Below are positions 27,901 to 47,391 of a stretch of DNA of 64,000 nt, piece after piece (position 1 is the first letter of the stretch; each line of letters starts with the position of its first letter). The notes under the pieces are model-generated. The model ran no database searches. It had not been told where the DNA came from and saw only the letters and a list, made by a program, of their open reading frames with translations. Position numbers and translations under genes: made by a program. Source of the DNA: Halothermothrix sp. (lineage in GTDB: Bacteria > Bacillota > Halanaerobiia > DY22613); the NCBI GenBank assembly GCA_016841825.1, contig JAENYK010000010.1:62001-126000 (forward strand). The letters are read 5' to 3'.

Positions 27901-28686
27901 GGCAATGGGGATCAGGTTGAACTTATTTCTCAGCTTTTTCGCCAGCTCTGTTAATATTGGAAAGGTATCTACCGGATAGTTATTGTTACTGAACAGAACT
28001 CCGATTGTAGCCTTTTCTGGAAACAGTGAAACATCCTCCAGATAATGATCGAGATGCCGATACCCCCTTTTCGTTACCGGATCATAGAGGATCACTTCAT
28101 CAATGGTCACTGGGGGTTGATAAGCGGGAAAGTCTTTATAACCCAGATACTCTTTGCCCAGTAAAAAAAGGAGGTTTTCAATATTCTGCTCATCGGCAAA
28201 TTTCCAATATTTACCTAACCAGAAATAGTTGCGCATATCCCGTAATTTACCAATGGGAAAAGCTTCTCCAACTGCTTCCATCCTCTGAATCATCTTCATC
28301 ATTTTGCGCATCCCCGTCTGTTCTGCTGATCTGTTCTCACCCATCCGGCTCATTCTCTGAAGTGAGAACTTACCCAGTCGTGTCAAACCCCTGATCCTCT
28401 GTTCACTGGCATTTAAGACCACAATATCTCCCGGAAAGTCATCCAGATGTGAGTACAAAGCCTGACAGAACTCTTTATCTACCCCCATCAGATCCAGGAG
28501 AACCAACCTTTTCCCCAGAATACTCTGCAAGATCGGTTCCCAATCCTTTTGGGCAAAGGCATCGCTTCCCACATAGTGTAATTCCCAATTGACCCGGTCT
28601 CTCCATTGACTCTGCTCCCAGCGCTCACCTATTTTACGTACCTGGTTAAGCCCGGAAGTTCCCACTGCAATAAAAACAATCTGCAT
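24937..28686 (-). CDS. cobN: CobN-type metallochelatase large subunit (first of two paralogues)
   Basis: A 1249-residue protein of the CobN/BchH class. HLGTHGTVEFLPGKEAG near residue 567 is the conserved core motif, and RRSHGVMVSHL and the C-terminal DDANERFV segment also match the family. With AAA+ I and D subunits, this class inserts cobalt or magnesium into a tetrapyrrole in the cytoplasm. It is the last gene of the 20-kb riboswitch operon and pairs with another CobN-type gene at 37-41 kb that is clearly different in sequence. No bacteriochlorophyll or corrin-ring genes are nearby, so the true substrate is open. Confidence 0.88.
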   Translation of the reverse strand: MQIVFIAVGTSGLNQVRKIGERWEQSQWRDRVNWELHYVGSDAFAQKDWEPILQSILGKRLVLLDLMGVDKEFCQALYSHLDDFPGDIVVLNASEQRIRGLTRLGKFSLQRMSRMGENRSAEQTGMRKMMKMIQRMEAVGEAFPIGKLRDMRNYFWLGKYWKFADEQNIENLLFLLGKEYLGYKDFPAYQPPVTIDEVILYDPVTKRGYRHLDHYLEDVSLFPEKATIGVLFSNNNYPVDTFPILTELAKKLRNKFNLIPIAMARSIDRDLEQVKGFLINDLIKVDVLINLLSFRLGAGPMGGDAEAAVQLLQELNVPVLHPFFLSKRTIEEWKADSRGVKTGEFLISIFLPELDGVIETYPIAAQQSAESGIGELALIEERVDHLLGRVLSWNRLQKKSVRERRAAIIFYDYPPGESNLGSGAFLDSFRSLEAILKRLAAEGYNLTPRTAGELRDIFVGGGMVNTPKWTDQARSKCIRVTAAEYQSLTSDWSRKDEIDNYWGEFPGKIMGEDQEVWLPGIVEGNIFIGLQPARGFYQGKDYTQGSAKDYHDKFMPPHHQYVAFYKWLERGFGADICIHLGTHGTVEFLPGKEAGLSGECYPDYLLGTMPHLYVYYSGNPAESMIAKRRSHGVMVSHLHPPFVQSDLYGEMQALEALLAEYEEAQLMNSARLEDILADIREIAGKLGWPWEGLEELAATLYEMKSALIPGRLHIFGSGFSSVEVVEFLVQLFMVSGDGWPSLYQLLAQDEGWDWVALTEAPHRYQKEYLGLKKRALEWIQRFVMQETELNGGDKQRLELYQAIRQQGIRIKAALLNNRELEGLLKGLAGSYISASIGGDVFRNPELLPTGRNLYQFDPRRVPSPSAMRRGKEIAENTLEQYYQVHGQYPESVAVILWGLETSKTQGETIGQILSYLGVRISRSGTLWRPILEVISLEELGRPRVDVTIQICGFFRDMFPNLIELINDAFELVSQLSDEGEENQIQKHAGKLLTELRQMGLSSEEASEFAYARIFGPESAQYGTGVNQLVKSRNWQSEADLVTNYLTSLQYVYTKNHYGREMPGLLAKNLSRVELVSQIRSSRDYELTDLDHYYEYFGGLARTVAETSGKKAMMLISDTHNGRPRTEDVQRSIQRGSRTRLLNPKWLDGMLQHQFHGGQQLADRLENLLGLAATTGSVDNSIFDDANERFVLDETMRNRIRENNQYSLLEIMERLLEAQQRGYWKPKEEDLEELRRQYLKLEGDLEGLND

Positions 28687-28705
28687 CCTTAAGCCCCCTT
28701 ATAAG

Positions 28706-30109
28706 CTAATCATCTAGATTGAAATATTCAGTAAGCAAACCAGTATTTCCGTCTGCAGCTATTCTGCCATCCTTTAAAATTAGAACCCGTTCTGCAAAAC
28801 ACTGTGCCGACCGCAAATCATGAGTCACCATAATTATAGTAGTCTCTAACTCTCTACGTATCTCAGCTAAAGCTCTGATCAGATTGTCTAAAGAGAGGGA
28901 ATCTAATCCAACAGAGGGTTCATCTAATAGTAAAACCTGCGGTCGGATCGCTGCCATCGCAGTAATGGTTACCAGCCGTTTCTGTCCTTCGCTTAAAGAA
29001 TGGGGATGAACATCCTGCAGAGATTCCAGACCAAATAATTTGATAAAGTATTGAGTATTCTCCGGGCTGTTGGACTGAAAATCTACTTCATTATATACCG
29101 TATCCATAAATAACTGATAGCCAGGATTCTGATAGACGTATCCGATCTGCTGCACTCCATTCTGCTCAAGAGCAGAACTTCTCCAAATCTGACCAGTAAA
29201 CTTTCTGATCAAACCAGCCAGTGCCTTTAACAAAGTAGTCTTTCCTGAACCATTCTCTCCCAGGATGACCAGATTTTCCATCACCATCAGGTTAGCAGTG
29301 AGCTTATTCAATACTGTTTTATCACCATAGCCACAGCTAAAATCAGCTAATTTAAATAGTGGACTACGTTTAATATATAGAGCCGGTTCATGATTTTTAA
29401 ACAACCGACGATATCTGGCTTGAGCCTCTTCACGATTAAGATCTGCTGCAATCTCTCCAGCATCCATCCAGAGCATCCGGGTTATATAAGGTAAGACCAG
29501 ATCTAATCGATGTTCAACGATGATCACTATCTCACCTCTTACTGTTAACTCCTGCAAATATACCAGCAGTTTCTGACTACTCTCACGATCCAGATTGGCG
29601 AAGGGTTCATCCAGAAGGTAGATCCCCTGCTGCATCATCAGCACAGATCCGATGACGAGTCTTGCTTTCTCTCCCCCAGAGAGCTGATCGATCCTGGCAT
29701 CCTCAGCTAACTCAATCAACCGACTGTAACGTTTAACTCTCTGGTCAATCTCAGTCGGCGAAATCCCCAAATTCTCACAACCAAAAGCTAATTCATCTGC
29801 GACAAATAGATTAAAAATCTGGGAGTCGGGTTCTTGTAAGACACTGCCAATATCAAGAGCTATCTGACCCATACTTAAACCACTGTTCTGCACACCATTG
29901 ATCAGGATTGCACCTGTTAACTCGCCAGTGAATATCCTGGGGATAATTCCGTTAATACAAGCCAATAGTGTAGACTTACCAACTCCACTGATCCCAGAGA
30001 TCAACACTAACTCTCCCCCATCTATCTGCAGATTAATCTCTTTTAAGATCCAATCCCTCTGCTCACCGTACCTAAAACAGAGGTTTTTAATTAAAATAGA
30101 CCTATCCAT
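28706..30109 (-). CDS. ECF transporter ATPase with two fused ABC domains
   Basis: A 467-residue duplicated ABC protein. Domain 1 has GISGVGKST and LSGGEKAR; domain 2 has GENGSGKTT and LSEGQKRL. Each has a Walker B (LLDEPFANLD and LLDEPSVGLD). The fused form replaces the EcfA/EcfA' pair. ATG 30109 is preferred; the longer frame would run deep into the upstream ecfT gene, which it still overlaps by 19 bases. With the next two genes upstream it makes a complete energy-coupling-factor vitamin or metal importer. Confidence 0.9.
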   Translation of the reverse strand: MDRSILIKNLCFRYGEQRDWILKEINLQIDGGELVLISGISGVGKSTLLACINGIIPRIFTGELTGAILINGVQNSGLSMGQIALDIGSVLQEPDSQIFNLFVADELAFGCENLGISPTEIDQRVKRYSRLIELAEDARIDQLSGGEKARLVIGSVLMMQQGIYLLDEPFANLDRESSQKLLVYLQELTVRGEIVIIVEHRLDLVLPYITRMLWMDAGEIAADLNREEAQARYRRLFKNHEPALYIKRSPLFKLADFSCGYGDKTVLNKLTANLMVMENLVILGENGSGKTTLLKALAGLIRKFTGQIWRSSALEQNGVQQIGYVYQNPGYQLFMDTVYNEVDFQSNSPENTQYFIKLFGLESLQDVHPHSLSEGQKRLVTITAMAAIRPQVLLLDEPSVGLDSLSLDNLIRALAEIRRELETTIIMVTHDLRSAQCFAERVLILKDGRIAADGNTGLLTEYFNLDD

Positions 30110-30786
30110 TGGATGAACACCACGCTTATTATACAAATTATGAAGCCAAAACTGACAAAGCAATCCTTTACTGACCAGTGAAGAGGACGATAGATAGTAC
30201 CCTTGACCTCAGTAGAAAAACCTCTGGTCTCTAAAGATACAGCCAGTGTATCGGAGATCTTAATCAATCTGATAATCAGCGGCAGAACAAAGGCCCGATA
30301 GGTAATCTGCAGCCCCGCCTTTTTTGGGTTGACTCCGCGAACCATCATCGCTTCTCGAATTCTTTGAATCTCCTCTTTTAAGACAGGAATGAAACGGACA
30401 GTAATCAAAAATCCTAAAGACAACCATCTGGGAGCTCCCACCTGAGTCAAAGATCTGGCTAAACCAGTAGCATCAATGGTCACTACCAGCACTGATGAAA
30501 ATCCCAAAAGAGATATTCTCCCCAGAGTCATTAGACTCCCTATCAGTCCATCTCCCAGTAAAAATGCCAGAAGCCCCACCACTGCCCCTAAAGGGATAAC
30601 AATTCGATAAACCTTTATAACTGCTTTAAAGTAACCGGCAAAGGAGAAGAGGATAACCAAGGAGAAGATAAATATGTACAACAGTCGCACATCTCTAATC
30701 AGCAGTCCCCAACTCAGGGTGACGATCGAATAGATTATATTGCCCAACGGATGCAGGGGTATTTTATTACTATCAACTGACCACAA
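30091..30786 (-). CDS. ecfT: ECF transporter transmembrane coupling protein EcfT
   Basis: About 231 residues with five or more membrane helices. The two cytoplasmic A-R-G-type motifs (MMVRGVNPKK near residue 145 and LETRGF near 185) couple the ATPase to the S component. The start is uncertain: TTG 30786 lies eight bases behind AAGGGAG, whereas GTG 30795 overlaps it. CbiQ of cobalt transporters has the same fold, so a cobalt importer is possible, but the S component next door is not a CbiM. Confidence 0.85.
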   Translation of the reverse strand: MWSVDSNKIPLHPLGNIIYSIVTLSWGLLIRDVRLLYIFIFSLVILFSFAGYFKAVIKVYRIVIPLGAVVGLLAFLLGDGLIGSLMTLGRISLLGFSSVLVVTIDATGLARSLTQVGAPRWLSLGFLITVRFIPVLKEEIQRIREAMMVRGVNPKKAGLQITYRAFVLPLIIRLIKISDTLAVSLETRGFSTEVKGTIYRPLHWSVKDCFVSFGFIICIISVVFIQWIGLF

Positions 30787-30803
30787 TATAATCACTCCCT
30801 TAA

Positions 30804-31343
30804 TCAGACCTGAACTTTTAATACACCAGCCTTTTTCAGTTCTCTTCCAATCTTTATCCCCACAAACGCTCCGACAAAACTAAGGATTCCTGTACCCAAC
30901 AATACCCCACAGATCACAAATGGGTCGGTAATCAGTCGCTGCATACCCGCTCCCCCTGCCCAGGCAGTAATCAGCAGACTAACAGGAATTGTCAGTGGCA
31001 TGTAAAGACCTGCACCAATAAAAACAGCTCGCTCTACATCATAGCTTTTAAAGATTAGCAGCACCAAAAGCTCTGCAATTAATCCTGCCAACAAATTATT
31101 GGCAAACATCACCCAGGACATCATCAGTAAAACCAGACCATTAAATAAAGCTATTAGAAACAGACTACCAATCTTTCTGACCTTCATTAGACCTATTGCC
31201 ATTAATATACCATAAAAGAATGCCGGTGCCAGTGAACGTATCCCCGGAATCGGAATCGCCAGAACCAGTGGTACAGTGACAAAGCCAATGATCGTCACAC
31301 AGGCCGCAATAATTGCCAGAAAAACAATATCGCCAATTTTCAT
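30804..31343 (-). CDS. ECF transporter substrate-binding (S) component, MptD-like
   Basis: A 179-residue integral membrane protein with about six helices and few charged residues. Its pattern resembles the MptD/Trep_Strep group of ECF S components rather than CbiM, BioY or ThiT. The substrate is unknown. ATG 31343 lies nine bases behind AAGGAGG. Being in the same operon as B12 uptake, CbiZ and chelatase genes, it may carry a corrin precursor, a tetrapyrrole or a metal complex. This is inference from position only. Confidence 0.75.
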   Translation of the reverse strand: MKIGDIVFLAIIAACVTIIGFVTVPLVLAIPIPGIRSLAPAFFYGILMAIGLMKVRKIGSLFLIALFNGLVLLMMSWVMFANNLLAGLIAELLVLLIFKSYDVERAVFIGAGLYMPLTIPVSLLITAWAGGAGMQRLITDPFVICGVLLGTGILSFVGAFVGIKIGRELKKAGVLKVQV

Positions 31344-31368
31344 CAATCAAAACCTCCTTAAAAGACCA

Positions 31369-33279
31369 TTAGTTTTTCAGAACCCATTTCAGAGTTGATG
31401 CCAACTCGCCTTCATAAAGATCTTCCAATCTGATATAAAATCCCCCCAACTGATCAGCGATCCGTCGGGCCAGTCCCAATTTGACGAATCCAGCCTCTGT
31501 GTCAACAACGACAAACTGAATTCTCTCACGGGCCACCTCCCCAGCGACGGTAAGTACGTCTGCTAAAGGATCTTCTCCCTTCAATGCCACATTCGTCCGC
31601 CCATCGGAGATCAGGATAACCGTTGGAATAACATCCTGATCCTTGACCCGCAGAGCTTTAATCAATTCTACCGAGCGATTTATCGCCAGAGCCAGAGGAG
31701 TCTTGCCCCCAACGGGAAGCTCCTTTAAACATCTATAAGCCAAATCCACGCTCCGGGTCGGCGGCAGAACCAGCTCTGCCTTCTGGCCCCTAAAGATCAT
31801 CATCCCTACCATATCCCGTTTCTGATAAGCACTGTGCAGTAGGGAGAAAATAGCTCCTTTGGCAGTTTTCATCCGTTCCTGCACTCCCATCGAACCACTG
31901 GCATCTACTAAAAAAAGAATCGTATTACCAACCCGCCTCTCTCTAATCTTCTCCCGAAGATCTTCTGCATGAATGGAGACCGCCATCCCCTTTCGATCAC
32001 GGACGCTCTGATAGGGAGCAGCAGCCCGTAAAGTTGCATCAAAGGCAATATCACTAACTTTTCCTTTAGGTAAACGATATTTTACATATCGCCCTAACCG
32101 GGACTGAGTCCTGGTTTTACTCCTGCGGCCGCTCCCCTGATTACGCATCCGATGATCTACCAGCGGTTTTAGAATATCTTTAGCTTTAAAGGGATCCCCT
32201 ATCTCGAAGACCTGATCCTCTGTAGAAATATCTTCCATAGGCAATGATGATTCTTCTGCTTCTGTCTCGTCTCCTTCTTTAACCTCATCTGATTTTGACA
32301 GCGGCGAACTATTCTCTTCTTCTGTTCTGGGAGGAACATTCTGCAGAGTCGATTGATCCTCTTCTAGAGCTGAATCATCGTCTTCCGCTGCTGAATCATC
32401 CTCCTGTAGATCTGATAAGCTAACCGGTGGAGTTCGCCAGCGATGAGATAAAGCTAAGGGAATAATCTCTTTGATATCATCGACCAATACCTGGTCTCGC
32501 CCATAATAAGCTGCCAATGCCCTGGCCCCTTCTGCTAAAGCAAGATCTCCCCGATGACCTGCAGTGAATGCCTCCAGATTCAGTTCAGCAATTAACTGTA
32601 ACAATCCTGGTGAGATCTTCACTTTAGCCAACTGTTTTTTCGCCTGTAATATCCTTTGCAGTAAATCCTCTTCCTGTTCACGATAATTCTCCAAAAACGA
32701 AGCCGGGTTCTCTTCAAAAGTCAGTCTTTTCTTAACTATCTCCATCCGTCTCCTGGGTTCTTGTGAACCCCTCACTTCTACAAAAAACCCGAACCGATCC
32801 AACAGCTGAGGTTTGAGTTCTCCTTCTTCAGGATTCATTGAACCGATGAGAATAAATGAGGCAGGATGGGAGTGGGAGAGTCCTTCCCTTTCCACGTGAT
32901 TAACCCCCGAAGCGGCAACATCTAAGATCGTGTTGATCAGTGAGTTGGAGAGAAGATTTACCTCATCAATATAGAGGATATTCTTATTGGCAGCTGCCAG
33001 GATTCCAGGTTCAAAGACCTTTTTCCCTTCCTTTAAAGCAGTTTCCATCTGCAAGGTACCGACCACCCGATCTTCGGTGGCGTTTAATGGGAGAGTGACA
33101 ACTTTTAAGCCGGGACACAGCTGAGAGAGTGAACGAACGATAGTGGATTTAGCTGTTCCCTTCTCTCCACAGAGAAGGAGACCACCAATCCGTGGAGAGA
33201 TCAGATTCAGGAGTAGAGCTTTTTTGACCTCCTCCTGGTCAACAATAGCCGAGAAAGGAAATAATACATCCTCCATCAT
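31369..33279 (-). CDS. Chelatase subunit D (AAA+ and von Willebrand A domains)
   Basis: A 636-residue protein with three parts. Residues 1-290 are an AAA+ domain with Walker [10 protein letters not shown]. Residues 290-350 form a very acidic linker. A C-terminal von Willebrand A domain holds the MIDAS motif DASGSMG near residue 456. It matches BchD/ChlD and the I-D hybrids that work with CobN-type subunits. Unlike many D subunits its Walker A looks intact, so it may bind ATP. It overlaps the I gene by four bases. With the I subunit it would power metal insertion by either of the two CobN proteins. Confidence 0.88.
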
Positions 33280-34208
33280 CCCTGAACCTCCCCTAGCTGA
33301 GCACTAATCCACCGGGAGAAATCTGTGAAATCCAGGGAACTCTCTTCAAAAGGTTTTCTGCGCATTCTGTGGGGTAAGACCAGTTCTGCTGCTCTAATGA
33401 TATCCTGCTGAGTTACCTCAGTTCTGAGCCTGTAAGCAGCCAATGTTTTTGCTGTCTTGATAATGGTTATATCTGCCCGATGCCCATCAACCCCCAGTTT
33501 TATGGCAAGTTCAGCGGTAAGCTCCAATAACTGATCCTGCAAACTGACCCGGTTTAATAGTTCCCGGGCATGCTCAATATTGTGTGCCAGCTTCTCCTGT
33601 TCAGCCCGATAATCATTGTAAAATTCCTGCGGATTCTCCTCAAAAGCCAGTCTTCTCCTGATCACCTCAACCCGATCCTCTAGCTTCTGTTCCCCTACTA
33701 CCTCCACAGTCAGACCAAAACGGTCTAACAGCTGAGGACGTAAATCACCCTCTTCAGGGTTCATCGTCCCTACCAGAACAAACCTTGCTGAATGAGAATA
33801 AGAGATACCTTCCCGCTCAACAATATTCACCCCCATAGCAGCGGCATCCAATAACAGGTCAACAATATGATCGTCTAGCAGATTAACCTCATCCACGTAG
33901 AGAATGTTTCCATCAGCTTCTGCCAGAACTCCCGGTTCAAAGCGTTTCTCGCCCGTCTTCAGGGTATGTTCAATATCAAGGGTTCCAACAACCCGATCTT
34001 CCGTACTGCTGATGGGTAGCTCTACCACTTTCTTATCTGGTAAAAGATCTGCTAAAGCTCTAACTGCCGTAGACTTTGCTGTCCCTTTCTCACCACGAAT
34101 TAAAACCCCACCTATTCTGGGGTTAATAACATTTAAAATCAAAGCCTCTTTCATTAGCACCTGGGCGACGATTGCAGTAAATGGATAAATGTCTCTTCTG
34201 ATATTCAT
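33276..34208 (-). CDS. Chelatase AAA+ subunit I
   Basis: A 310-residue AAA+ ATPase of the BchI/ChlI class. GEKGTAKST is Walker [12 protein letters not shown] Walker B, and [19 protein letters not shown] covers the sensor and arginine-finger region. Length agrees with the family, so it is complete. ATG 34208 lies six bases behind AAAGGAAG. BchI forms a hexamer that drives the D subunit. Position, directly before the D gene, is the usual arrangement. Confidence 0.9.
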
Positions 34209-34210
34209 CT

Positions 34211-35392
34211 TTATCTTCCTTTCTTTTTGGCTGCCAGATCTATCTGTGATAGTCTATCCTGGCCTATTTTGACCTCACCTTCCACCTTAATAGCAGTGAG
34301 AATAACTTTTTCAAAGTCAGTTATCAGCTCAGTGATCAAATCTTCACAATCCTCAGCCATAACTAACTGCTCTTTCGACTCTAGATGCCAATACAGATCT
34401 GTCAAAATTAATTTCCCTCCTTCCCTTAGTTCACTATCGTTCAATAAACCCCACTGATATTGATCTAAGAGATGGATATATAAAGATGCGGCTGTAACCC
34501 ATTTGCCTTCAATTTCGAGAGAATCCAGCCGATGCATAAAATCCGTCTTGGGAAGGCAGTCTTCTTCATTAGCTACAGATGATGCCAGATACGAAATCCA
34601 CAGGCTTTCTTCATTTAAACCATAGCGTTTGAATCTCCTGAGAAGACTGTGCTGTTTTTGTGGTGACAGCCCTGTCTGTTTGTCAAGAGCCTCTTTCACT
34701 GCCCCTTTAACGGCTTTACCAATCAACTCCCCAAGTTTGGAATGTTTACCAGCATTAGTCAGATAGATATGTGAATCTAGATTGCAGATCATGATTGTCC
34801 CATCTGTACCAGAACCAGTAGCCAATCCAGTCGAATAATTACTGCCAGCTATCAATTCCTGCAGAGCAGCAGTCTTGGCTTCTGTACAGGTGACCAGTGC
34901 CCTGGTCAGAGTACCGGGAGGGAGATTAGCATTAATCTCCACGATGATATTGATTGTACCGGACTTCTCGGCTAACTTTTGCTTCTCCTGCAGATCTAGT
35001 TCATCATAGGAAGCCTTGTCTCCAGCTCTACCGCCATTTACTTCAACTCCCCCGGTAACGATCGCTGTTACACTAAGCTCTCTAGAGCGTTCAACTATAA
35101 TTGAGAGATTATCCATGGAAGCAGCCGTACTGAGTCCCGTAATCTTTTCAGGATTCAAACCCAACTCCTGCCCAATTAATCGCAAATGCTCTTCATAGGT
35201 AGCAGCTCTCAGCTTACAGCCAATCCCTGCTCCCAGATTCTCATCACGATTGTAAACTGCCTCTAAATCAATATGGTATCCACCATTGAGAACCGATGTA
35301 CTCACCACTCCCCGTCTACCGGTAAATGGGATCACAATTGCTTTTTGATAACGATGTACGGAATCTCCTACTGGCGTTTTGAAAATCAACAT
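34211..35392 (-). CDS. cbiZ: CbiZ-type adenosylcobinamide amidohydrolase with C-terminal extension
   Basis: Residues 1-230 match Cbi[15 protein letters not shown] near 37, [11 protein letters not shown] near 90, SGTDGTIM near 200 and [15 protein letters not shown] near 215. CbiZ cleaves the aminopropanol arm of adenosylcobinamide or pseudocobalamin to give adenosylcobyric acid, so that the lower ligand can be exchanged. The protein has 393 residues, about 160 more than a minimal CbiZ. The extra part is helical and not recognised. Neighbouring B12 import genes and the riboswitch fit a salvage role. Confidence 0.82.
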
Positions 35393-35406: not shown

Positions 35407-36384
35407 CTATAATCTCCCGAGGGCTAAATTCTGCTCCCGGATAAAGTTTTCAAACTCTACTGCATCCCTGGGTAAGACTTCAAAAACCGTATACTCGGGT
35501 TCGATCTCTGCAATAATTTTTCGGATAGATTGATCCCTAAAAGGCTGATGACGATCAATCTTCTTGATATGGGGGATCGCTGCCACGTACTGTTCCCAGA
35601 TTCCCTGGATCTCAGCTACTCTTGCTAATTCCTCAGAGTGATCCTCTCTTAAATATTCACCTGGTAAAGACGAACTCAGATGAACTCCCCGAATCTGCTC
35701 TTTTAGCTCCCCTAAATCATCTATCTGCTTCAAAATATAATCACTGGCTTCCTGCTCATCCCGTAAGTTAGAATTGGTGATCATTAGATGAGCTATATCC
35801 AACATCAAACCTTTATTCCGATAGTGAATCTTCTGGAAAAACTTCCGGGTTAACTCATCATCCAGAAGATTCAAGCCTGGCCACCAGAGATTCTCGAAAA
35901 GGAGCACAATATTTTGATCATTCTCTGGAAAAGATTGATTAATCAGTTCTACTGCTGCTTCCAAAACATCCCAGTTAGTATATGTAAAGTTCCAGTTATA
36001 GGTATGCAATAGCTCAACATGACCAACGTGGAAGACCAGATACTTCACCCCCAATCCTTGGGCGATAGCGAACTCTTTTTGATAATGTTCTACCAATAGC
36101 TGGGCATCAAGACCACCATAAAACTGACGAATATTCTCTTCGTTTTTAAACTGTTTTAAAAGAGTCTGACGATCCTCCCGCCAAAAATCCAACCACATCG
36201 GCCAATAACTGAGATGCAAACCGTGAACTAAATCCTCTGGGATCTTAGATAAGTCATAATCACCATGTAGGATTAACTCAATTCCATTCAGTTGATTTCT
36301 CGTAGTGAACTGCTTAATCTGCTCCCAATCGTGGTCAAACCATTCAAGATTCATCGCTGAAGTCGAAAAATTTGTTAAAAACAT
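35407..36384 (-). CDS. TIM-barrel protein of the sugar-phosphate isomerase/epimerase (AP endonuclease 2) fold
   Basis: A 325-residue barrel. FHVGHVELLH near residue 118, LFENLWWPG near 165, LMLDIAHLM near 195, GVHLSS near 237 and VFEVLPRD near 300 mark successive strands. They carry His, Glu and Asp residues of the kind that bind metals in this fold. The fold serves isomerases, nucleases and, in DUF692 relatives, peptide-modifying enzymes, so no reaction can be given. It starts four bases before the radical SAM gene ends, and the two probably act together. ATG 36384 has GGAGGATG just upstream. Confidence 0.7.
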   Translation of the reverse strand: MFLTNFSTSAMNLEWFDHDWEQIKQFTTRNQLNGIELILHGDYDLSKIPEDLVHGLHLSYWPMWLDFWREDRQTLLKQFKNEENIRQFYGGLDAQLLVEHYQKEFAIAQGLGVKYLVFHVGHVELLHTYNWNFTYTNWDVLEAAVELINQSFPENDQNIVLLFENLWWPGLNLLDDELTRKFFQKIHYRNKGLMLDIAHLMITNSNLRDEQEASDYILKQIDDLGELKEQIRGVHLSSSLPGEYLREDHSEELARVAEIQGIWEQYVAAIPHIKKIDRHQPFRDQSIRKIIAEIEPEYTVFEVLPRDAVEFENFIREQNLALGRL

Positions 36385-36387
36385 CGC

Positions 36388-37455
36388 TCATCCTCCAATA
36401 TTCAGATTTCGGGCATAATCAATATATGTCTGACGTAAGATACATTCACCCAGATAGACTCTGTTCAGCTTTCCATAACAGGAATAAGCTCTGGCTATGC
36501 AGCCGCCGCCACACAGGTCTCGATTCTGACAGTTCTGACATCTTAGATCCTCCATTAGATCCACCTGGCTAATAAAGGCCTGCATCTTACTTGAAGGATC
36601 AAACTCAGCATCCAGAATATTTCCATAGCTAAACTCTTGATAGCCTGTCAGCGAAGAACAGGGATATACCTCACCTTCCGGCATAACTGCAAAAGAGGTA
36701 CCTGTGATGGCATAACAGTATCTCTCCCGACTTTGCCCGGTCTGGATTAAGTACTTTATCTTCTCCAATTCTTTAAACTGGATAGGTATTCCTCCTATAC
36801 TGCCGATCTCTACTGCCCGATCGAGAGCTTTTTTTACTTCTCTCTGCAGCATTTTAAAGTCAGTTATCTGAAGATCTAAATCACTTCCGCGACCGATGGG
36901 ACGATAGAGATCGAAATTAACCCCCGCAACATTTCCCAAATAACTCAACAGATCTACAAACTTAACTATCCCGGATAGGTTGTATTTAGTCAAGGTAGCA
37001 GTAATTCCCACCTTAATCCCTAACTGTCCCAGATGATGTAAACCAGTGATCACCCCTTTAGCAGAGCCGCTGCCCTGAGAATCAATCCGGAGTTGATCGT
37101 TGATCTCTGGCCAGCCATCAAGACTTAAACCCATAGCGATCTTCAAACTCTTTAATCTTCCAGCCATTCTTTCATCAATTAACATCCCATTGGTCTGCAG
37201 CTGAAAGTCGATCAGCAAACCTTTCTGCTGACCGTAATCGACGATCTCCTCAATTAAATCTATTCCCAGGAGGGGTTCACCACCAGTAAACTGTACTTTA
37301 AAGGAATCTGACTGTTGCGCGGCATAGTCAATCGCCCGAAAAGCTACTTTCCGACTCATCAGATTATTTCTTTCCCCTGACCGGGCATAACAATATTTAC
37401 AGCGCAGATTACAGTCATCAGTTATCCGTAAAACTAAAAGTTGCAGCCCATCCAT
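36388..37455 (-). CDS. Radical SAM enzyme with C-terminal SPASM domain
   Basis: A 355-residue enzyme. CNLRCKYC (C15, C19, C22) binds the SAM iron-sulfur cluster and FTGGEPLL is the SAM-binding motif. The C-terminal half has the SPASM pattern: CYA, then YPCSS, then CQNCQNRDLCGGGC and a last C, enough for two extra clusters. SPASM enzymes mostly modify ribosomal peptides. I recall a named family (CbpB) described beside CobN-like genes, but could not check whether this belongs to it. ATG 37455 directly follows the cobN stop; a TTG start further upstream would overlap cobN. No substrate peptide adjoins it. Confidence 0.85.
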   Translation of the reverse strand: MDGLQLLVLRITDDCNLRCKYCYARSGERNNLMSRKVAFRAIDYAAQQSDSFKVQFTGGEPLLGIDLIEEIVDYGQQKGLLIDFQLQTNGMLIDERMAGRLKSLKIAMGLSLDGWPEINDQLRIDSQGSGSAKGVITGLHHLGQLGIKVGITATLTKYNLSGIVKFVDLLSYLGNVAGVNFDLYRPIGRGSDLDLQITDFKMLQREVKKALDRAVEIGSIGGIPIQFKELEKIKYLIQTGQSRERYCYAITGTSFAVMPEGEVYPCSSLTGYQEFSYGNILDAEFDPSSKMQAFISQVDLMEDLRCQNCQNRDLCGGGCIARAYSCYGKLNRVYLGECILRQTYIDYARNLNIGG

Positions 37456-37456
37456 C

Positions 37457-40400
37457 TTACAAAGAATCCTCAATACTACCTTCAATTTCCAGATACAGTC
37501 TGGTTAGCTGATCCTTACTCTCAGTAGATGCTTTCCACATCCCCCGCTGAATTGATTCCAGTAAACGATCAATCATACTATGCAGTGCCCATTGATTTAC
37601 CTCTTCAATCCATTTCCGATTTTCTTCATTAAAGATATAATTCTCAGCAATTTTCTCATACATCCAATCGTCAACCACAGCAGAGGTAGCATCCCAGCCA
37701 AAAACGATATCCACCATCGAGGCAAACTCCTGAGCACCTTTATAGCCATGCTCTTTTAAACCCGCGATCCAGCGAGGATTATTGATCCTGGCTCGCATTA
37801 TTCGCGAAGTTTCTTCATGAAGATCCAAAAGCTCTGTTCGCTCTGGATTGGCAGTATTGGCCGAATATGATCTTGGTTTTTGACCACTGTGGGTACGAAC
37901 CGCGGCAATCAAGCCGCCATGATAGTTATAAAAATCGTCACTATCGAACATATCAATCTCCACAGAGGATTCATTCTTCACAGTAACCTGGGTTTTGGCC
38001 AGACGCAGGGCAAAGAGTTCCTGTTTTTTCGCACCATGCAGCTGCCTGTTGTAAGCATGACCTCCCCAGGTAGTATATATTTTACCCAGATCATCGACGT
38101 CCTGCCATTTTCGACTGTTAATTAGAATATCTACACCCGCTCCATAAGTTCCCGGTGGGCAGCCAAAAACCCTGAGCGAAGCTTCAGCAACTGCCTCTTC
38201 TGAGTTGATTCCCCTATTGATCAACTCCTGAACCTCTTGATGAATATGCTTACGGATAAAGTTGTCCTCATAAGCCTCATCTAAAGCGGCGATAAGATTA
38301 ACGGCGTCATCAACTAATCCAATCACATTGGGAAAAGTATCCCTGAACAGACCGGAAATCCTTAAAGTGACATCAATTCGGGATCGCTTTAGCTCCGTAA
38401 GTGGAATAACTTCTAAACCCATCACTCTATCCGTACTTTCCAGCCAGACGGGGCGAACTCCCATCAGATAAAGGATCTCGGCTATATCATCTCCGTATGT
38501 CTTCATTGTCTCCCCGGAATAGACAACGATGGCTACACTCTCTGGATAAGTACCCTCATCCTGCAGATACCTTGCCAGCAGATCATCAGCCAATCTTTTA
38601 CCCACTTCCCAGGAGGACTTTGTCGGAACTGCCCCGGGATCGATGGCATAGAAATTCCGACCAGTGGGCAAGATATTTGGCCGCCCCCGTGTAGGTGCTC
38701 CTGATGGTCCCGGAGAGACAAATCGACCATTTATTCCCTCCACCAGATAGTGTAGCTCATCGGTTGTCCGATTAAGCCGCCAGGTCAACTCATCAGCGAC
38801 AAACTTCAAGCATTGGATAAGGTGAGTGATATCAAAGGTCTGAGTCCCCAGGACATCATAGATTATCTGCTCAATCTGCTCTGAGCGATAATCTGCCTCT
38901 GCCAGTCGATCAATTAAATCTTTACCGATCATAATTAATTGATCAATGACCATCAATCCTGTCTGCCCCGGAGTAACCAGAGCCGTCGGCCTGGACTGAA
39001 GCTCTTCATAGTCCAAACCTTTAGCCTGGGCAATACATTTTAAAAGCGAAGGGGTTTGCCGATTATCAATCCGTACCAGAGCCCGCAGCAGATTTTTATA
39101 GCGTTCTTCGGGATAAATTTGACCAAAAATATGTAATCCATCCTTGATCAGTGAAGATTTTATTCTGGAAGTCCAGGTATGCAGCCGATCGATAAACTCC
39201 ATAAAATCATCAAAAGCTGCGGTTTTTGAGATTTGAATATCCGTGTGCAGATCAATACTTTCCACAAGCGTCCAGATCTGTTCCTGAAGTTCTGGAATCT
39301 TCCTCGAATCAGCAGGCAGTGAATGATAGTACTCCTTCAGCAAATCATCTATCTGGGCCAGTTCATCATAGGTCTCACTCTCTACCAATGATGGGATCAT
39401 ATGCGCCAGGAGAACCGCAGCAGAACGCCGCTTTGCCTGGATTCCCTCACCAGTCACATTTATTATGCAAGGATAAAGATGGGGAAGATCGTCAATGGCG
39501 ATGTCGGGATAACAGTCTGCTGATAGGCCTTTCTCCTTCCCCGGTAACCATTCCAATGTTCCATGAGTTCCCACATGAATGATTACATCAGCGGCAAATC
39601 CCTCCTTAATCCACTTATAAAAAGCAATATATTGATGAGGGCAGACCAGATCTGTACTGTGATAACACTCCTCGGCCTTTTCGGTAAAAGCTCGATGGGG
39701 TTGTAAACCGATGAAGATATTACCATTAAGAATTCCCGGAATCGGCAATTGATCTTGATGAACCATAAAACCACCTGGGGGATGACCCCAATCTTTAATC
39801 ACCTGCTGTTGAACAGTTTCGCTCAGTTTTGAGAACCATTCCCGATAGTGATCTCCAGTTACTATATCCACGCTCTTCTCTAGCATCTGTTCAGGACTTT
39901 GCCAGTTTAAGTCATTGCTAACGCCTTGGATGATCTTCTGGATGATCTCCTGTCCATCGCTAAAATCATAATCAACTCTAACTCCGTCCGCCTTTAGAGC
40001 ATTAATCATCTGAAAGACGCTCTCAGGAGTATCCAGTCCAAAGGCACAGCCGATGGAATCATTCCGTGGAGGAACATTGTGCAAAATTATGGCAATTCGC
40101 TTCTCAGAATTGGACAAACATCTTAACCGCGTCCAATTTAGTGCCAATCTGCAGATTTTATCTATCCGATCTGCTATCGGCCGATAGACGTTTCGCTGAC
40201 CGATCTCATCCTGCAGATATTCAGTATAAGCGATGGGAACGGTAATGATCTGACCATCAAATTCAGGATAATAGATATTGGAGACTAAGGACATCACATC
40301 CAGTCCACTTACAGACTCTTTCCACTGTTCCAGAGTCAGATAAGTAGAGAGAGCCTGTAGAACGGGGACTCCTAAACTTTCAAAGATACTGTCATCAATT

Positions 40401-41209
40401 ATCTGACTCCCATCTCCCGGATCACCGAAGACACTCAACGAAAAACCTATCGTGTTAACCAGCACGTCAATATTTGAATGACCATCTGTCAGCAAATAGT
40501 TATCAATTAACCAGCGGATTCCATGTTTTTCTAACTTTTCCTCCCGGGTAACCCCGGTATAAATGGCGAGAGGAACAGCCCCTAAACTTTTTATTTTTTG
40601 AATTAATGCATCAATATGTTCCAGATTATTCCTGATAATATTATTAACATGAAATAAAATACCAATAGTAGGTTTTTGACGATTTCTGACCTCCGCAATA
40701 TATCTCCTGTCATCGATGATCTCTCTTTCCGGGTCATATACTCCTTCCCATTTAATAACTTTCGGCTCCTGATACTCATACTCCAAACTTCCAAAATTTG
40801 CTGCCATCCATAAGATCAGATTATAGATATTGTCATAATCACCCATAGTAAAATATCGATAGATGGCAAAATAGTCATCCATACTCAACCTAAAGTATTT
40901 TTTTAATTCATTGATCTCATCATTTATCCCTGACTCAAGGTAGGATTTTTTCTTCTCTTTAAAGCTATCGAAAAACTCCCTAAACCTTTTAAATCGAGTG
41001 AATCCTCCATGACAACAGATGAAGACAAAATCACTCTCTGCAGCTAAAGATACTGCCCGTTTAAAACTTTTCAGGTCTTTGTCTAGATCATTGGTATTTA
41101 GCAAATCAATCTGAAACTGATCAGGATAATCACTTTGCAGTGATTGTCTTACCTCTCTCAAGACGTATGATGAGTCATGCATACTGAGGACAAACAATAT
41201 TCTATACAT
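37457..41209 (-). CDS. cobN: CobN-type metallochelatase large subunit (second paralogue)
   Basis: A 1250-residue protein of the CobN/BchH class, similar in length to its paralogue at 25-29 kb. The core motif is HVGTHGTLEWLPGKEKG. The N-terminal 200 residues differ strongly from the paralogue; the C-terminal third is closest. ATG 41209 is preferred, since GTG 41224 overlaps the GGTGGAGAG ribosome site. The gene lies between the corrinoid importer and the radical SAM gene, tightly coupled to both. One set of I and D subunits must serve both large subunits, unless one has lost activity. Confidence 0.87.
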   Translation of the reverse strand: MYRILFVLSMHDSSYVLREVRQSLQSDYPDQFQIDLLNTNDLDKDLKSFKRAVSLAAESDFVFICCHGGFTRFKRFREFFDSFKEKKKSYLESGINDEINELKKYFRLSMDDYFAIYRYFTMGDYDNIYNLILWMAANFGSLEYEYQEPKVIKWEGVYDPEREIIDDRRYIAEVRNRQKPTIGILFHVNNIIRNNLEHIDALIQKIKSLGAVPLAIYTGVTREEKLEKHGIRWLIDNYLLTDGHSNIDVLVNTIGFSLSVFGDPGDGSQIIDDSIFESLGVPVLQALSTYLTLEQWKESVSGLDVMSLVSNIYYPEFDGQIITVPIAYTEYLQDEIGQRNVYRPIADRIDKICRLALNWTRLRCLSNSEKRIAIILHNVPPRNDSIGCAFGLDTPESVFQMINALKADGVRVDYDFSDGQEIIQKIIQGVSNDLNWQSPEQMLEKSVDIVTGDHYREWFSKLSETVQQQVIKDWGHPPGGFMVHQDQLPIPGILNGNIFIGLQPHRAFTEKAEECYHSTDLVCPHQYIAFYKWIKEGFAADVIIHVGTHGTLEWLPGKEKGLSADCYPDIAIDDLPHLYPCIINVTGEGIQAKRRSAAVLLAHMIPSLVESETYDELAQIDDLLKEYYHSLPADSRKIPELQEQIWTLVESIDLHTDIQISKTAAFDDFMEFIDRLHTWTSRIKSSLIKDGLHIFGQIYPEERYKNLLRALVRIDNRQTPSLLKCIAQAKGLDYEELQSRPTALVTPGQTGLMVIDQLIMIGKDLIDRLAEADYRSEQIEQIIYDVLGTQTFDITHLIQCLKFVADELTWRLNRTTDELHYLVEGINGRFVSPGPSGAPTRGRPNILPTGRNFYAIDPGAVPTKSSWEVGKRLADDLLARYLQDEGTYPESVAIVVYSGETMKTYGDDIAEILYLMGVRPVWLESTDRVMGLEVIPLTELKRSRIDVTLRISGLFRDTFPNVIGLVDDAVNLIAALDEAYEDNFIRKHIHQEVQELINRGINSEEAVAEASLRVFGCPPGTYGAGVDILINSRKWQDVDDLGKIYTTWGGHAYNRQLHGAKKQELFALRLAKTQVTVKNESSVEIDMFDSDDFYNYHGGLIAAVRTHSGQKPRSYSANTANPERTELLDLHEETSRIMRARINNPRWIAGLKEHGYKGAQEFASMVDIVFGWDATSAVVDDWMYEKIAENYIFNEENRKWIEEVNQWALHSMIDRLLESIQRGMWKASTESKDQLTRLYLEIEGSIEDSL

Positions 41210-41227
41210 AATATATCTCTCCACCTC

Positions 41228-42439
41228 TCATTTACCCAGGGTAATTTTTTTGACAATATCTGCAATATCCTGACAAAAGATTATTCTTTCTATGTATTGA
41301 TCTGCAGACAGCTGTTGGAATAGTTTTCTGGTCTCTTTTTCCTGGCGCAGGCTGTAGATAGATTTTTTCATTCTAACTGCCTCGACCAACAGCACAAGAT
41401 TGCGTTCATTGCTCTTTCCGATCACAAAACCTGCATCGATCACGGTATCGACTTTTTTCAAAGTATTCAAAGCAGCTGCATATGTTTCTTTTCTAATTAT
41501 CTCAAAAGGCTTTTCACTGATTATGCTGGCTCCAATAGATTTGGCGACAAAATAATCCAGATCGCTTTGGTGAACGATTCCAGTCAAAATCTCATAACCG
41601 TGTTTGTTCAAAGCCCGGTAGAGTCTGCTTCCACTTCCCCCACCGCCTAAGATAAAGGCTAAATTTTTAGCTTGATTGCACAATTCGATTGTCCCCAATT
41701 GATCACTATAATGTGCCATATCAATATCATATAGTTTTTCTATCACCTCACCAGAAAGCACATCCTCTGGACAACCGTAATCCATTATCTTCCCATCTTT
41801 CACTAAGATGACTGTATCAGAACTCTTTAGTGCCAGGTCTATCTCATGCAAAGAGAGAATGACAGTAATCTGTTTCTCCTGACTCATCTGTTTTAAGATA
41901 GAGATCACCTCAAGCTTATGTTTGACATCTAAGTGGATGGTTGGTTCATCTAAAATAATCAGTTCTGGTTCCTGAACAATTGCCCGGGCAATCATCACCT
42001 TCTGCTTCTCGCCATCACTCAGTTCGCTGAAATAACGCTGAGCCAGATTCTCTGCATTGACCATACTTAAAGCTTCCATCGTTATCTTTATATCTTTAGT
42101 AGTCAGTCTCCCAAAAAAACCTGTATGCGGATATCTACCCATCGCTGCTACTTCAAAGACAGTAATTAATCCGGGAGCAGGGCGATCAGTTAAAACCACT
42201 GCCAATAGTTTAGCTAATTTTCGTTGATCAATCCCAGAGAATTCCTGACCTTTAAGCAGAATTGATCCCTTGAGTGGAGAAAGAAACCCTGCAAGAGTAC
42301 GTAAAATTGTGGTTTTTCCTGAACCATTTGGCCCCAGAAGACAAACGATCTGCCCCTTTAATGCTTCCAGATTCACCTGATCGACAACAACTTTGCTCCC
42401 ATATCCCACCGCTAAAGAATCAGTTCTGATAATGCTCAA
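41228..42439 (-). CDS. BtuD/FecE-type ABC ATPase with unusual C-terminal domain
   Basis: Residues 1-255 are a standard corrinoid or siderophore importer ATPase: GPNGSGKTT, signature LSDGEKQK, LIILDEPTIHLD and the switch histidine in SLHEIDLA. Residues 260-403 are extra. They begin with a glycine-rich loop (ILGGGGSGSR) and look like a Rossmann-type domain with a CQDIADIVKKI end. The start is TTG 42439, eight bases behind AGGAGG, and the gene overlaps the permease gene by four bases. The extension may sense or bind a nucleotide-like ligand such as the adenosyl or lower-ligand part of a corrinoid; that is a guess. Confidence 0.82.
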   Translation of the reverse strand: MSIIRTDSLAVGYGSKVVVDQVNLEALKGQIVCLLGPNGSGKTTILRTLAGFLSPLKGSILLKGQEFSGIDQRKLAKLLAVVLTDRPAPGLITVFEVAAMGRYPHTGFFGRLTTKDIKITMEALSMVNAENLAQRYFSELSDGEKQKVMIARAIVQEPELIILDEPTIHLDVKHKLEVISILKQMSQEKQITVILSLHEIDLALKSSDTVILVKDGKIMDYGCPEDVLSGEVIEKLYDIDMAHYSDQLGTIELCNQAKNLAFILGGGGSGSRLYRALNKHGYEILTGIVHQSDLDYFVAKSIGASIISEKPFEIIRKETYAAALNTLKKVDTVIDAGFVIGKSNERNLVLLVEAVRMKKSIYSLRQEKETRKLFQQLSADQYIERIIFCQDIADIVKKITLGK

Positions 42440-43476
42440 AGGACATTCCTCCTTCTCAGTAAGAGAAATATAACAATCGGTGCTCCCAAAAGTGAAGTAA
42501 CTGCACTGATTGGCACTTCGATGGGAGCAAAGACAGTTCTGGCAAATAGATCACATAAACCAGTGATGATTCCTCCTAAAAGAGCAGTTCCGGGAATCAA
42601 GATTTTATTATCGGCAGTTCCAAAGCAGAGTTTTGAGATGTGAGGTACTGAGAGTCCGACAAAAGAGACTGGCCCAGCAAACGCCGTGACCAGACCTGCC
42701 AAAAGACTGGAGATTAGCACAATTATTAGTCTAGTAGCTTTGATATTAACCCCCATACTAATAGCATAACTTTCACCCATCAATAAAGCATTCAGCGGTT
42801 TAGAGATTAATAAGGTGGCCAGGAGAATCGGTAGTGCAATCAAAAGTAACACCGTCACCTTATGCCAGCTAAATCCGGAGAAGCTTCCCATAGTCCACAT
42901 GATAAAGCCTTTAACCTCTTCTTTTTCGGCAAAAGCCATTAAAAAGCTGGTTACAGAACTGCAGAAATACCCGGCCATCAGACCAATGATCAATAAGGTA
43001 ACTACACTTTTGACTTTACGGGAGATCAGTAAGACAACTATCATCACCAGAACTGAACCACTGAAGGCAGCAAGAACGATCAAAAAAGGAATGGCTGTAT
43101 TCAACCCAAAACTAACACCTGCCAATAAGATCAATCCCACGGCCAGAGTCGCTCCGGAGGAGATCCCGAGAACAAAAGGTCCAACCAATGGGTTTCTAAA
43201 AAAAATCTGCAAAAGCAGGCCGGCTACAGCCAGCGAAGATCCACTAATCATGGCAGCCAAAGTACGGGGAAGTCTGATTTGACCGATAATCGCCCGATAG
43301 ACCGATTGTTCTGCCTGTTGATGAAAGACCATCTTCTTAATCTCCCAAAAAACCTGAATCAGTGATATTTTTACCGATCCCAGACCTACGTTTAACAGAA
43401 ATGTCAGGAGTAATAGGACTGACAACACAGTCAAAACCATCGTATAACGCCTGGTCTTCTTAGCAATGATTTCCAT
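42436..43476 (-). CDS. BtuC/FecCD-type ABC permease
   Basis: About 346 residues with some ten membrane helices. GSSLAVAGLLLQIFFRNPLVGPFVLGISSGA near residue 80 is the FecCD-family signature, and VSFVGLSVPHI near 270 is the region that contacts the ATPase. ATG 43476 is used; GTG 43482 is an alternative. With the binding protein before it and the ATPase after it, it makes a complete importer. The cobalamin riboswitch upstream points to corrinoids as cargo. Confidence 0.88.
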   Translation of the reverse strand: MEIIAKKTRRYTMVLTVLSVLLLLTFLLNVGLGSVKISLIQVFWEIKKMVFHQQAEQSVYRAIIGQIRLPRTLAAMISGSSLAVAGLLLQIFFRNPLVGPFVLGISSGATLAVGLILLAGVSFGLNTAIPFLIVLAAFSGSVLVMIVVLLISRKVKSVVTLLIIGLMAGYFCSSVTSFLMAFAEKEEVKGFIMWTMGSFSGFSWHKVTVLLLIALPILLATLLISKPLNALLMGESYAISMGVNIKATRLIIVLISSLLAGLVTAFAGPVSFVGLSVPHISKLCFGTADNKILIPGTALLGGIITGLCDLFARTVFAPIEVPISAVTSLLGAPIVIFLLLRRRNVL

Positions 43477-43517
43477 AATCACACCTCAACTTTATATAAC
43501 TGGCAGTGTCAAACTTC

Positions 43518-44609
43518 TTATTTTTTCAACTGTGTCAGATAATCATTGATCTTCTCTGTGAATAGTGTGGGATGGAAGATCCCTGCCAGTTCAACAATCT
43601 GCAGATGTGTTCTGTCCAGACTCTGATACCAGTTCTCATTATATCTCCAAACATTACCATTTTTCATAGATTTGAGTTCAGCTAAGATTTGAGCCTGCTT
43701 AACGATATCATCTGTGGAAAGAACGTCCCAGCTTGAATAGATGAAAATATCCGCATCAATCGCCTGGACGTAAAATTCTTCCAGCGTTATCTCTGCACTA
43801 CCTGACTCATTAACCCCTAGATGGTTGAATACATAATCTCCCCCTGCCAATGCAATCATCTCAGCTACATAGGAGCCTGCCTGGGGAACATAAACCTTTC
43901 CGTTATAAAGAGAACCCCAGACAACCTTTGGCTGTTCTCTATCAGCAAATACTCCCTGTAAATCTTCAATCTGCTGTAAAGCGCTATCAAAAAATTCTAC
44001 TGCCACATCATCTTTGTTATAAAAAGTCGCCAAAAACTTAATCCATTCCATTCTACCAAAAGCTTTGGATTCTATGTACTCATTATCCACCAGATAGGGG
44101 ATATTTAACTCCTTAAATTTTTCAATCAATGTGGTTTGCGGATAAGATCCAGTGTAAACCACAGCATAGTCTGGGTCAATCTCCTGAATCTTCTCAAAAT
44201 CTGGAGCCCAGTCTTCTCCAACAAATGTTACCGTTCCATTCTGAAGTCCTGTCTTGATTTCATCAATATACCAGGAGTCCAGTGAAGCTGTAACAGCAAC
44301 GACACTGTCTAACACCTCCAGTGGTCTAAGTAGACAAGCTTGAGTTGTCGATGCCAGAAGGACCCGGTCAATAGGCGTATAGATTACAGACAGATTCCCA
44401 TACCCTGTCGGTACTTGCTGTCCCTGCGGAACCAATAGCCAATCCACACCATCTCCATCCGTAACTATCTTATTCCCATTCTCCAGATACTCAATGTTAA
44501 AGGCATTTGTGTACCTTAACTCCAGAATACTACCGGCCGAAACAACTCCGGAAACAAGTAGCACACTGACGACCAACATTAAAATCCATTCATACTTTCT
44601 TCTTAACAT
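43518..44609 (-). CDS. Corrinoid-type ABC substrate-binding protein without lipobox
   Basis: A 363-residue periplasmic-binding-protein fold (BtuF/FepB class). LASTTQACLLRPLEVLDSVVAVTA, VTFVGEDWAPDFEKI and VWGSLYNGKVYVPQAGSY follow the usual order. The N-terminus is a signal peptide (RRK, then a hydrophobic stretch, then VVSAGS) with no cysteine near the cleavage site, so it is a soluble exported protein and not a lipoprotein. ATG 44609 lies six bases behind GGAGGGG. It is the first gene after the riboswitch. Lack of a lipid anchor suggests a cell with an outer membrane. Confidence 0.86.
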   Translation of the reverse strand: MLRRKYEWILMLVVSVLLVSGVVSAGSILELRYTNAFNIEYLENGNKIVTDGDGVDWLLVPQGQQVPTGYGNLSVIYTPIDRVLLASTTQACLLRPLEVLDSVVAVTASLDSWYIDEIKTGLQNGTVTFVGEDWAPDFEKIQEIDPDYAVVYTGSYPQTTLIEKFKELNIPYLVDNEYIESKAFGRMEWIKFLATFYNKDDVAVEFFDSALQQIEDLQGVFADREQPKVVWGSLYNGKVYVPQAGSYVAEMIALAGGDYVFNHLGVNESGSAEITLEEFYVQAIDADIFIYSSWDVLSTDDIVKQAQILAELKSMKNGNVWRYNENWYQSLDRTHLQIVELAGIFHPTLFTEKINDYLTQLKK

Positions 44610-44655
44610 GTAATTCCCCTCCATTTTAAAGTATTCGACTCTTTGAATTTGATCA

Positions 44656-44680
44656 TAAAAAAAGACCCCTTTCGGAGTCA
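44656..44680 (-). terminator. Attenuator between cobalamin riboswitch and importer gene
   Basis: On the minus strand GACTCC-gaaa-GGGGTC (one T-G pair) is followed by eight T. It lies in the 5' leader, 100 bases behind the aptamer and 46 bases before the start of the first gene, as expected for B12-dependent early termination. Confidence 0.85.
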
Positions 44681-44684
44681 TTTT

Positions 44685-44762: not shown

Positions 44763-44786
44763 TTCCCTCCGAAATCACACACATAT

Positions 44787-44979
44787 AAAGCTGCAGGCAG
44801 GTTTCCTGACTCACATCTCATCCTACTCCCATTCGCACTATAATGCGCTAAACCTTCCCAGTTTCCAAGTGGTTTAGTTTATGGTTTCGTTAATGTTTAC
44901 AGTAGCGGGGGCTGTGTCGGCTTTACACCGAACTTCCCTTTTAACCTCTTGTTTGATCGCAAGAAGCACCTGTAACTTT
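44787..44979 (-). promoter_or_regulatory. Cobalamin (AdoCbl-type) riboswitch upstream of the B12/chelatase operon
   Basis: Minus strand, in order: P1 strand AAAGTTACAGG, GGGAAGTTCGGTGTAAAGCC, CAGCCCCCGCTACTGT, CCACT...GGGAAGG, then the B12 box GAGTCAGGAAACCTGCC and the closing P1 strand CCTGCAGCTTT. Every conserved block of the class is present. The attenuator follows. It should turn off the 13-gene operon when B12 is plentiful. Confidence 0.95.
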
Positions 44980-45165
44980 TATAATATTTTACTTTCAGAC
45001 CATTTTCATTATATATAAAGAATTTATTGGTGTCAATATACATACTGGAGATAATGTCCACACTTATTTTCCGAATACCTATCTTTTCTGTAAAAATAAA
45101 TAGCTATTGTGCTGTCATTTCCATTGATTCTGATTGCATCAGAAATTAACCTTATAGTAATTATT

Positions 45166-46753: not shown

Positions 46754-46907
46754 CAATGACCTCCTCTTAACTAAAAATACCTGTTTATTCAATATCCGAC
46801 AGACAACTAATTCAAACTGTACCCTGCATCCCCTAAGAGCAGCTGGTTAGATCGAGCAACTCCAGTTAACTTTGAAATTATGTTCCTCACGGAATGAATT
46901 CACAGTT

Positions 46908-46951: not shown

Positions 46952-47043
46952 GTCAGCAAAATAAGCTAGTCAGCAGAAATTATCTAAACTAACTAACATC
47001 GCTCACCTTCGCCTTCTCTGAGTCGGAAAATAACGAGGTACAA

Positions 47044-47197: not shown

Positions 47198-47391
47198 GAA
47201 TAGCTATTTAATTATGGAGTGCATCCAGCATGTATCCTGGTAGTAACTCCAGTCGTACTAGTTAAACTTTGATTTATCACCTCAGTATAACATACCGGGA
47301 AAAACATGTCAATTTCCCAACTGACCTATTCAAGTCTGTAACAACTATTCAGTATTGTTGTTATAGAGATAAACATGCTTAAACACTAAAT

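Follow-up and report, generated by a model that had tools for sequence, protein, structure and literature searches.

Among the described systems closest to the locus reported here is operon-2 of Dehalobacter restrictus (Dehre_0281-0291), in which fepB is Dehre_0281, cbiZ is present twice (Dehre_0282 and Dehre_0285) and cobN is Dehre_0287; under corrinoid starvation, the transcript of its first gene rises 346-fold and its proteins rise 46-fold as an average over the operon (PMC4285132). A further point of reference is CbiR, a member of the AP endonuclease 2 superfamily that splits adenosylcobalamin into cobinamide-phosphate and alpha-ribazole; BLAST similarity to Akkermansia CbiR with E below 1e-14 has served as a criterion for this family, and the Akkermansia protein has 282 homologues (PMC7733943). 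SPASM radical SAM enzymes can act on tetrapyrroles, e.g., AhbD (PMC10452713), and CobN-like HmuS/BtuS proteins de-chelate heme (PMC12583661; PMC6460266). In the literature, we found no paper connecting SPASM enzymes with CobN salvage operons and no description of a B12-salvage step that uses a corrin-modifying SPASM enzyme together with a class I chelatase. Strict anaerobes that make B12 by the early-cobalt route, in which CobN is not needed, also keep this late-acting protein in their B12-starvation operons, and the literature offered no account of its role there.

The window analysed here is the whole 64,000-nucleotide stretch of Halothermothrix sp. DNA. Thirteen of its genes, all on the minus strand from 44681 to 24937 and with a largest intergenic gap of 35 bp, form one operon behind a cobalamin riboswitch. 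The features are given below in gene order, with the two cysteine motifs of the radical SAM enzyme placed after that enzyme.

44779-44988, minus strand: cobalamin riboswitch at the operon head (RF00174, 102.8 bits, E 1.3e-24)
43518-44681, minus strand: BtuF-like binding protein (Peripla_BP_2, 89.5 bits)
42436-43482, minus strand: BtuC-like permease (FecCD, 267.8 bits)
41228-42439, minus strand: BtuD-like ATPase with a C-terminal extension (best NCBIfam match the corrinoid ABC ATPase PRK09536, below cut-off)
37457-41224, minus strand: CobN of the clade linked to the radical SAM enzyme (CobN-R), with the canonical SDD at 1094-1096 (TIGR02257, 979.5 bits, cut-off 822; tree and residues)
36388-37455, minus strand: SPASM radical SAM enzyme (rSAM), 355 aa (Radical_SAM/SPASM; AF2 pLDDT 92)
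37390-37413, minus strand: CX3CX2C radical SAM cluster motif of rSAM (positions 12, 16 and 19 of alignment A3)
36442-36717, minus strand: seven-Cys SPASM motif of rSAM (A3 C244, C263, C303, C306, C312, C316 and C335)
35407-36384, minus strand: TIM barrel, probable CbiR-type cobamide phosphodiesterase, 325 aa (PF01261, nine metal ligands, fold, gene clusters of relatives)
34211-35392, minus strand: CbiZ, adenosylcobinamide amidohydrolase (PF01955, 183.5 bits, gathering cut-off 27)
33276-34208, minus strand: ChlI-type AAA+ chelatase subunit (TIGR02442, 445 bits, and TIGR02030, 365 bits, both below cut-off)
31369-33279, minus strand: ChlI-ChlD-type chelatase subunit (TIGR02442, 706 bits, below cut-off 779)
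28706-31346, minus strand: ECF-type importer, in the order S component (weak Trep_Strep match), CbiQ-type T component and double ATPase (A)
24937-28686, minus strand: BchH/CobN-type protein, the second large subunit of a class I chelatase (TIGR02025, 856 bits, cut-off 829)

A preliminary description of this DNA had noticed a SPASM enzyme and a TIM barrel lying between cobN and cbiZ and had tied the former to corrinoid and chelatase genes. Both open reading frames are indeed found there, Pfam and NCBIfam agree with their classification, and the tie is borne out by the co-occurrence and gene neighbourhoods described below. The ATG of rSAM lies one base past the cobN stop codon (TAAGATG). On balance, we favour reading the locus as a B12-repressed operon for corrinoid uptake and remodelling, with rSAM tied to the route of the chelatase. 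It is the riboswitch and the neighbouring genes that lead us to call the FecCD-type transporter a B12 importer. The 3' end of the operon (24937-31346) consists of the ECF importer and the BchH-type chelatase subunit, a pairing that suggests a second tetrapyrrole substrate using the same AAA+ motor. Upstream of the operon, at 45166-46792, lies a two-gene ABC-2/DrrA-type exporter with a cobalamin riboswitch of its own (47034-47208), and this exporter recurs in many rSAM islands.

Pfam matches rSAM with Radical_SAM at 70.8 bits (cut-off 29.5) and with SPASM at 21.0 bits, slightly below the cut-off of 21.5. Across 15 orthologues (alignment A3), the cysteines of CX3CX2C and the seven SPASM cysteines are all invariant. 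No eighth SPASM Cys is invariant in this alignment; judging by comparison with published structures (PMC10452713), one site of auxiliary cluster I could therefore be open, like that of CteB. Set against 14 paralogues, the invariant residues specific to the family include Q52, Q82, Q84, D179, R182, R186, E228, S265 and R319 (A3 numbering), and the motif D179-L-x-R182-xx-G-R186 is likewise family-specific. In the AlphaFold model, Q52, Q82, Q84 and D179 map to the predicted barrel strands 48-55, 78-85 and 173-180. These residues are compatible with one conserved substrate, whose identity they do not indicate.

The NCBIfam profiles nearest to rSAM are PapB (NF047865; 178.9 bits, curated cut-off 340), DynA (144 bits) and the SCIFF maturase (143 bits), and the nearest structures to its model are CteB (TM 0.83), the anaerobic sulfatase maturase anSME (0.81) and ChlB (0.79). 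No NCBIfam cut-off is reached by the window's rSAM, including those of the peptide-modifying families, and the best E-values across the 15 members do no better; all orthologues miss the PapB cut-off (best E 1.7e-52). rSAM resembles the thioether-forming maturases PapB and CteB in profile, in fold and in having no invariant eighth SPASM Cys, and differs from them in its family-specific residues and in having neither an N-terminal leader-binding domain nor a precursor gene. The match to anSME (TIGR03942) reaches 116 bits against a cut-off of 349, and the residue following the second SPASM Cys, where the catalytic Asp of anSME presumably sits, is Ser, Ala or Gly in the rSAM family. The preliminary description had brought up CbpB (TIGR04163, rSAM_cobopep), a SPASM enzyme that it placed beside CobN-like genes; here the score is 115.0 bits, with a curated cut-off of 375, and no CbpA-type peptide is seen at the rSAM loci, so rSAM can be called neither CbpB nor PapB. 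AhbC, AhbD and NirJ are also radical SAM/SPASM enzymes, some with two auxiliary clusters, and have tetrapyrrole substrates, but their profiles match rSAM weakly and far below cut-off (AhbD, TIGR04545, 96.6 bits against 500; NirJ2, 108 bits), and AhbD has eight SPASM cysteines rather than seven. We conclude that rSAM represents a SPASM family of its own, unassigned and seemingly not described before, with a link to one clade of chelatases.

The boundaries of this family are clear in the genomes sampled. The window's own genome holds 40 rSAM matches, the best paralogue scoring 120 bits, whereas orthologues across the phylum score about 146-350 bits, well apart from paralogues, and cluster apart from ten outgroup SPASM proteins in a tree with moderate support (88/97). 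Orthologues (L050-L062 and L025) occur in 15 of the 299 phylum genomes sampled. A scan of genome contigs with one query sequence returned L025 as its sole match, and viral contigs yielded no relative. Fifteen of the 17 genomes with CobN-R carry rSAM, as do none of the 282 others (Fisher p about 2e-23, a value that ignores kinship and treats related genomes as independent). The rSAM-CobN pairing recurs in many families of the phylum, far beyond what chance would give. Within 20-kb neighbourhoods, rSAM islands contain CobN-R with BtuFCD, CbiZ, ChlI/ChlID and a DrrA-type exporter, in several cases a carbon-nitrogen hydrolase, and usually lie near cobalamin riboswitches; the linked-clade CobN of genomes G116 and G252 is roughly 13-16 kb from rSAM. 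Two further genomes (G168 and G334) hold CobN-R and the remainder of the island without rSAM, so the chelatase can do without this enzyme.

Some features of these islands were noted in passing. Tandem carbon-nitrogen hydrolase (nitrilase/amidase) genes recur (L025:2277-3992, L051:2348-4177 and L126:16507-18148), with a single-domain form in some islands. In one island (L129:461-10504, genome G302), which is apparently decaying, rSAM is broken into two fragments and CobN is split. DUF4430 proteins adjoin islands at L052:9574-14949, L055:9638-15000, L056:5637-8723 and L057:15887-18955, some with toroid repeats and/or S-layer domains and several near cobalamin riboswitches; by their resemblance to animal intrinsic factor/transcobalamin, they may be surface B12 binders.

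In a CobN tree, the 15 rSAM-linked proteins form one clade (100/99) and ten others form a second (100/100), with the window's BchH-type protein standing alone. Positions 1094-1096 are Ser-Asp-Asp in linked CobN and Cys in most others. We would like to note that the second clade, which has no rSAM (L073, L074, L079-L084, L086 and L091), carries Cys-Cys-Cys where the linked proteins have Ser-Asp-Asp (1094-1096) and further conserved cysteines near window-CobN positions 512, 513 and 517; its members possibly handle a different metal or a cluster.

The TIM barrel had been described as coupled to rSAM, a pairing we reject, as it is absent from every other rSAM island examined. It looks instead like CbiR. 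AP_endonuc_2 (PF01261), the superfamily domain of CbiR, matches it at 41.0 bits (cut-off 31.1), and endonuclease IV is its best fold match in Foldseek. As would be expected of the metal ligands of a CbiR, H57, H119, E164, D196, H199, H235, D277, H279 and E302 are invariant in alignment A2, and these nine correspond, in residue type and in sequence order, to what we take to be the ligands of the trinuclear metal centre of endonuclease IV. Relatives from the same class share 32-34% identity (A2), and their genes cluster with those for CobT, a BzaB-family protein resembling ThiC, and two proteins whose family and position are those of CblT and CblS (an ECF S component and a PurM-like protein, respectively). 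In the window and at L018-L024, the TIM barrel gene has cobamide genes of the same orientation beside it, again as for CbiR. Akkermansia CbiR (Amuc_1679; PMC7733943) is likewise an AP_endonuc_2 TIM barrel with conserved His/Asp/Glu metal ligands, encoded beside cobamide genes and transporters, whereas the window's gene adjoins CbiZ and CobN rather than cobT/cobS, and the similarity measured is a distant, endonuclease IV-like one. Taken together, the TIM barrel is very probably CbiR, a cobamide phosphodiesterase.

This assignment would extend CbiR to an operon with an adjoining CbiZ, in a genome without detectable CobT, and suggests recycling of the lower-ligand nucleoside. CobS and CbiD are present in the window's own genome, and no match to CobT was found in this draft assembly. 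Elsewhere in the same genome, L168:661-2444 carries a cobalamin riboswitch, a CobA-like adenosyltransferase, CblT and CblS. Since CblS, CblT and CobS are present and CobT was not found, recycled or imported alpha-ribazole may supply the lower ligand. In the corrinoid uptake and remodelling that we favour, BtuFCD would import cobamides, CbiR would cut them at the phosphoribosyl bond with release of alpha-ribazole, CbiZ would cut the amide bond with release of cobyric acid, and the freed corrin ring and lower-ligand nucleoside would be reused through CblT/CblS/CobS, while rSAM would process a corrinoid or tetrapyrrole passing through the CobN-ChlI-ChlID chelatase.

The preliminary description had named a peptide that binds cobalt or a corrinoid, or else a modified cofactor, as a possible product, and it saw no peptide gene beside rSAM. 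The latter observation holds more widely: when all frames of 18-100 codons outside long genes were scanned at 16 loci, no small open reading frame was conserved apart from riboswitch sequences. Two widespread families of small frames were discarded as peptides, being frames across cobalamin riboswitches on either strand; the remaining shared frames are limited to few, mostly close, relatives, and Cys-rich frames less than 2 kb from rSAM are not conserved, so the scan of 16 loci also revealed no Cys-rich cognate precursor gene of the ranthipeptide/sactipeptide kind. Since conserved small frames are lacking throughout the loci scanned, the simple peptide reading is refuted by the standard that the preliminary description had itself set. 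Its more specific form, in which rSAM and the TIM barrel jointly make a CbpB-like peptide that binds cobalt or a corrinoid, could draw on the SPASM fold, the corrinoid neighbourhood and the DrrA-type exporter of many loci, but is highly improbable given the CbpB score, the missing peptide and a TIM barrel that is missing from other rSAM loci and accounted for as CbiR. Since CteB and the sulfatase maturase are the nearest structures, a peptide or protein substrate is nevertheless quite possible. We give about the same weight to rSAM being a maturase that marks (by a thioether, formylglycine-like or similar modification) an island protein such as CobN-R or BtuF, or a peptide encoded elsewhere. 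PapB, CteB and anSME are its nearest relatives in profile and structure, anSME is similar in size and also has no leader-binding domain, the seven SPASM cysteines would allow the open auxiliary cluster I site used by thioether-forming enzymes, and the link to one protein, CobN-R, is tight. Against this stand the 16 loci without a conserved small frame and the Ser/Ala/Gly at the place of the anSME Asp. Furthermore, of 198 CobN positions invariant in the genomes with rSAM, none is changed in both CobN-R genomes without it; this sets aside the idea that CobN is the obligate substrate and bears a special residue marking it as such, although a universally conserved residue could still be the target.

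A tetrapyrrole substrate comes close to being probable in our judgement; we give it slightly more weight than a peptide or protein, with a small share left for other roles. What counts against it is that the nearest profiles and folds belong to enzymes that modify peptides or proteins, and that the missing eighth Cys would liken rSAM to the thioether-forming CteB. That rSAM is specifically a corrin- or tetrapyrrole-modifying partner of the class I chelatase, e.g., one readying corrinoids, once imported, to take up or exchange cobalt, is a tentative proposal, and in so definite a form rather unlikely. CbiD, of the anaerobic early-cobalt route, is present in 15 of 15 rSAM genomes; as CobN is not needed in this route, CobN-R is likely a salvage enzyme. 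The same superfluity of an inserting CobN in hosts that make corrins by the early-cobalt route, along with the de-chelating HmuS/BtuS proteins, could be taken to mean that the chelatase extracts cobalt in the way that HmuS extracts iron from heme, with rSAM aiding corrin breakdown in an operon that harvests cobalt. We regard this as improbable: CobN-R keeps the SDD motif and usually lies beside the AAA+ ChlI/ChlID subunits that drive metal insertion, and the operon, which B12 represses, encodes remodelling enzymes that conserve the corrin ring. A radical enzyme co-inherited with the CobN-R clade suggests a chemical step that has so far escaped notice.

One rSAM genome (G234; loci L128/L060) appears to be that of Dehalobacter restrictus PER-K23. 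Its island runs BtuF-CbiZ-BtuC-BtuD-CbiZ-BtuF-CobN-ChlID-ChlI-rSAM-ABC-ABC behind a cobalamin riboswitch, an order that fits operon-2, and the rSAM orthologue, as the tenth gene, would be Dehre_0290 by counting genes on. Operon-2 shares BtuFCD, CbiZ, CobN, the chelatase subunits and the cobalamin riboswitch with the window, and differs in having two cbiZ genes and no CbiR-like TIM barrel; rSAM is absent from three of the four other searched genomes of the genus, just as operon-2 is missing from other strains, and the main text of the operon-2 paper makes no mention of rSAM (PMC4285132). As a family member appears in this cultivated, B12-dependent dechlorinator, the role of rSAM is experimentally testable. 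Elsewhere in the window, we noted a lone CRISPR repeat-like match at 21193-21222 (38.4, cut-off 37) and a 2578-codon open reading frame on the minus strand at 56261-63997.
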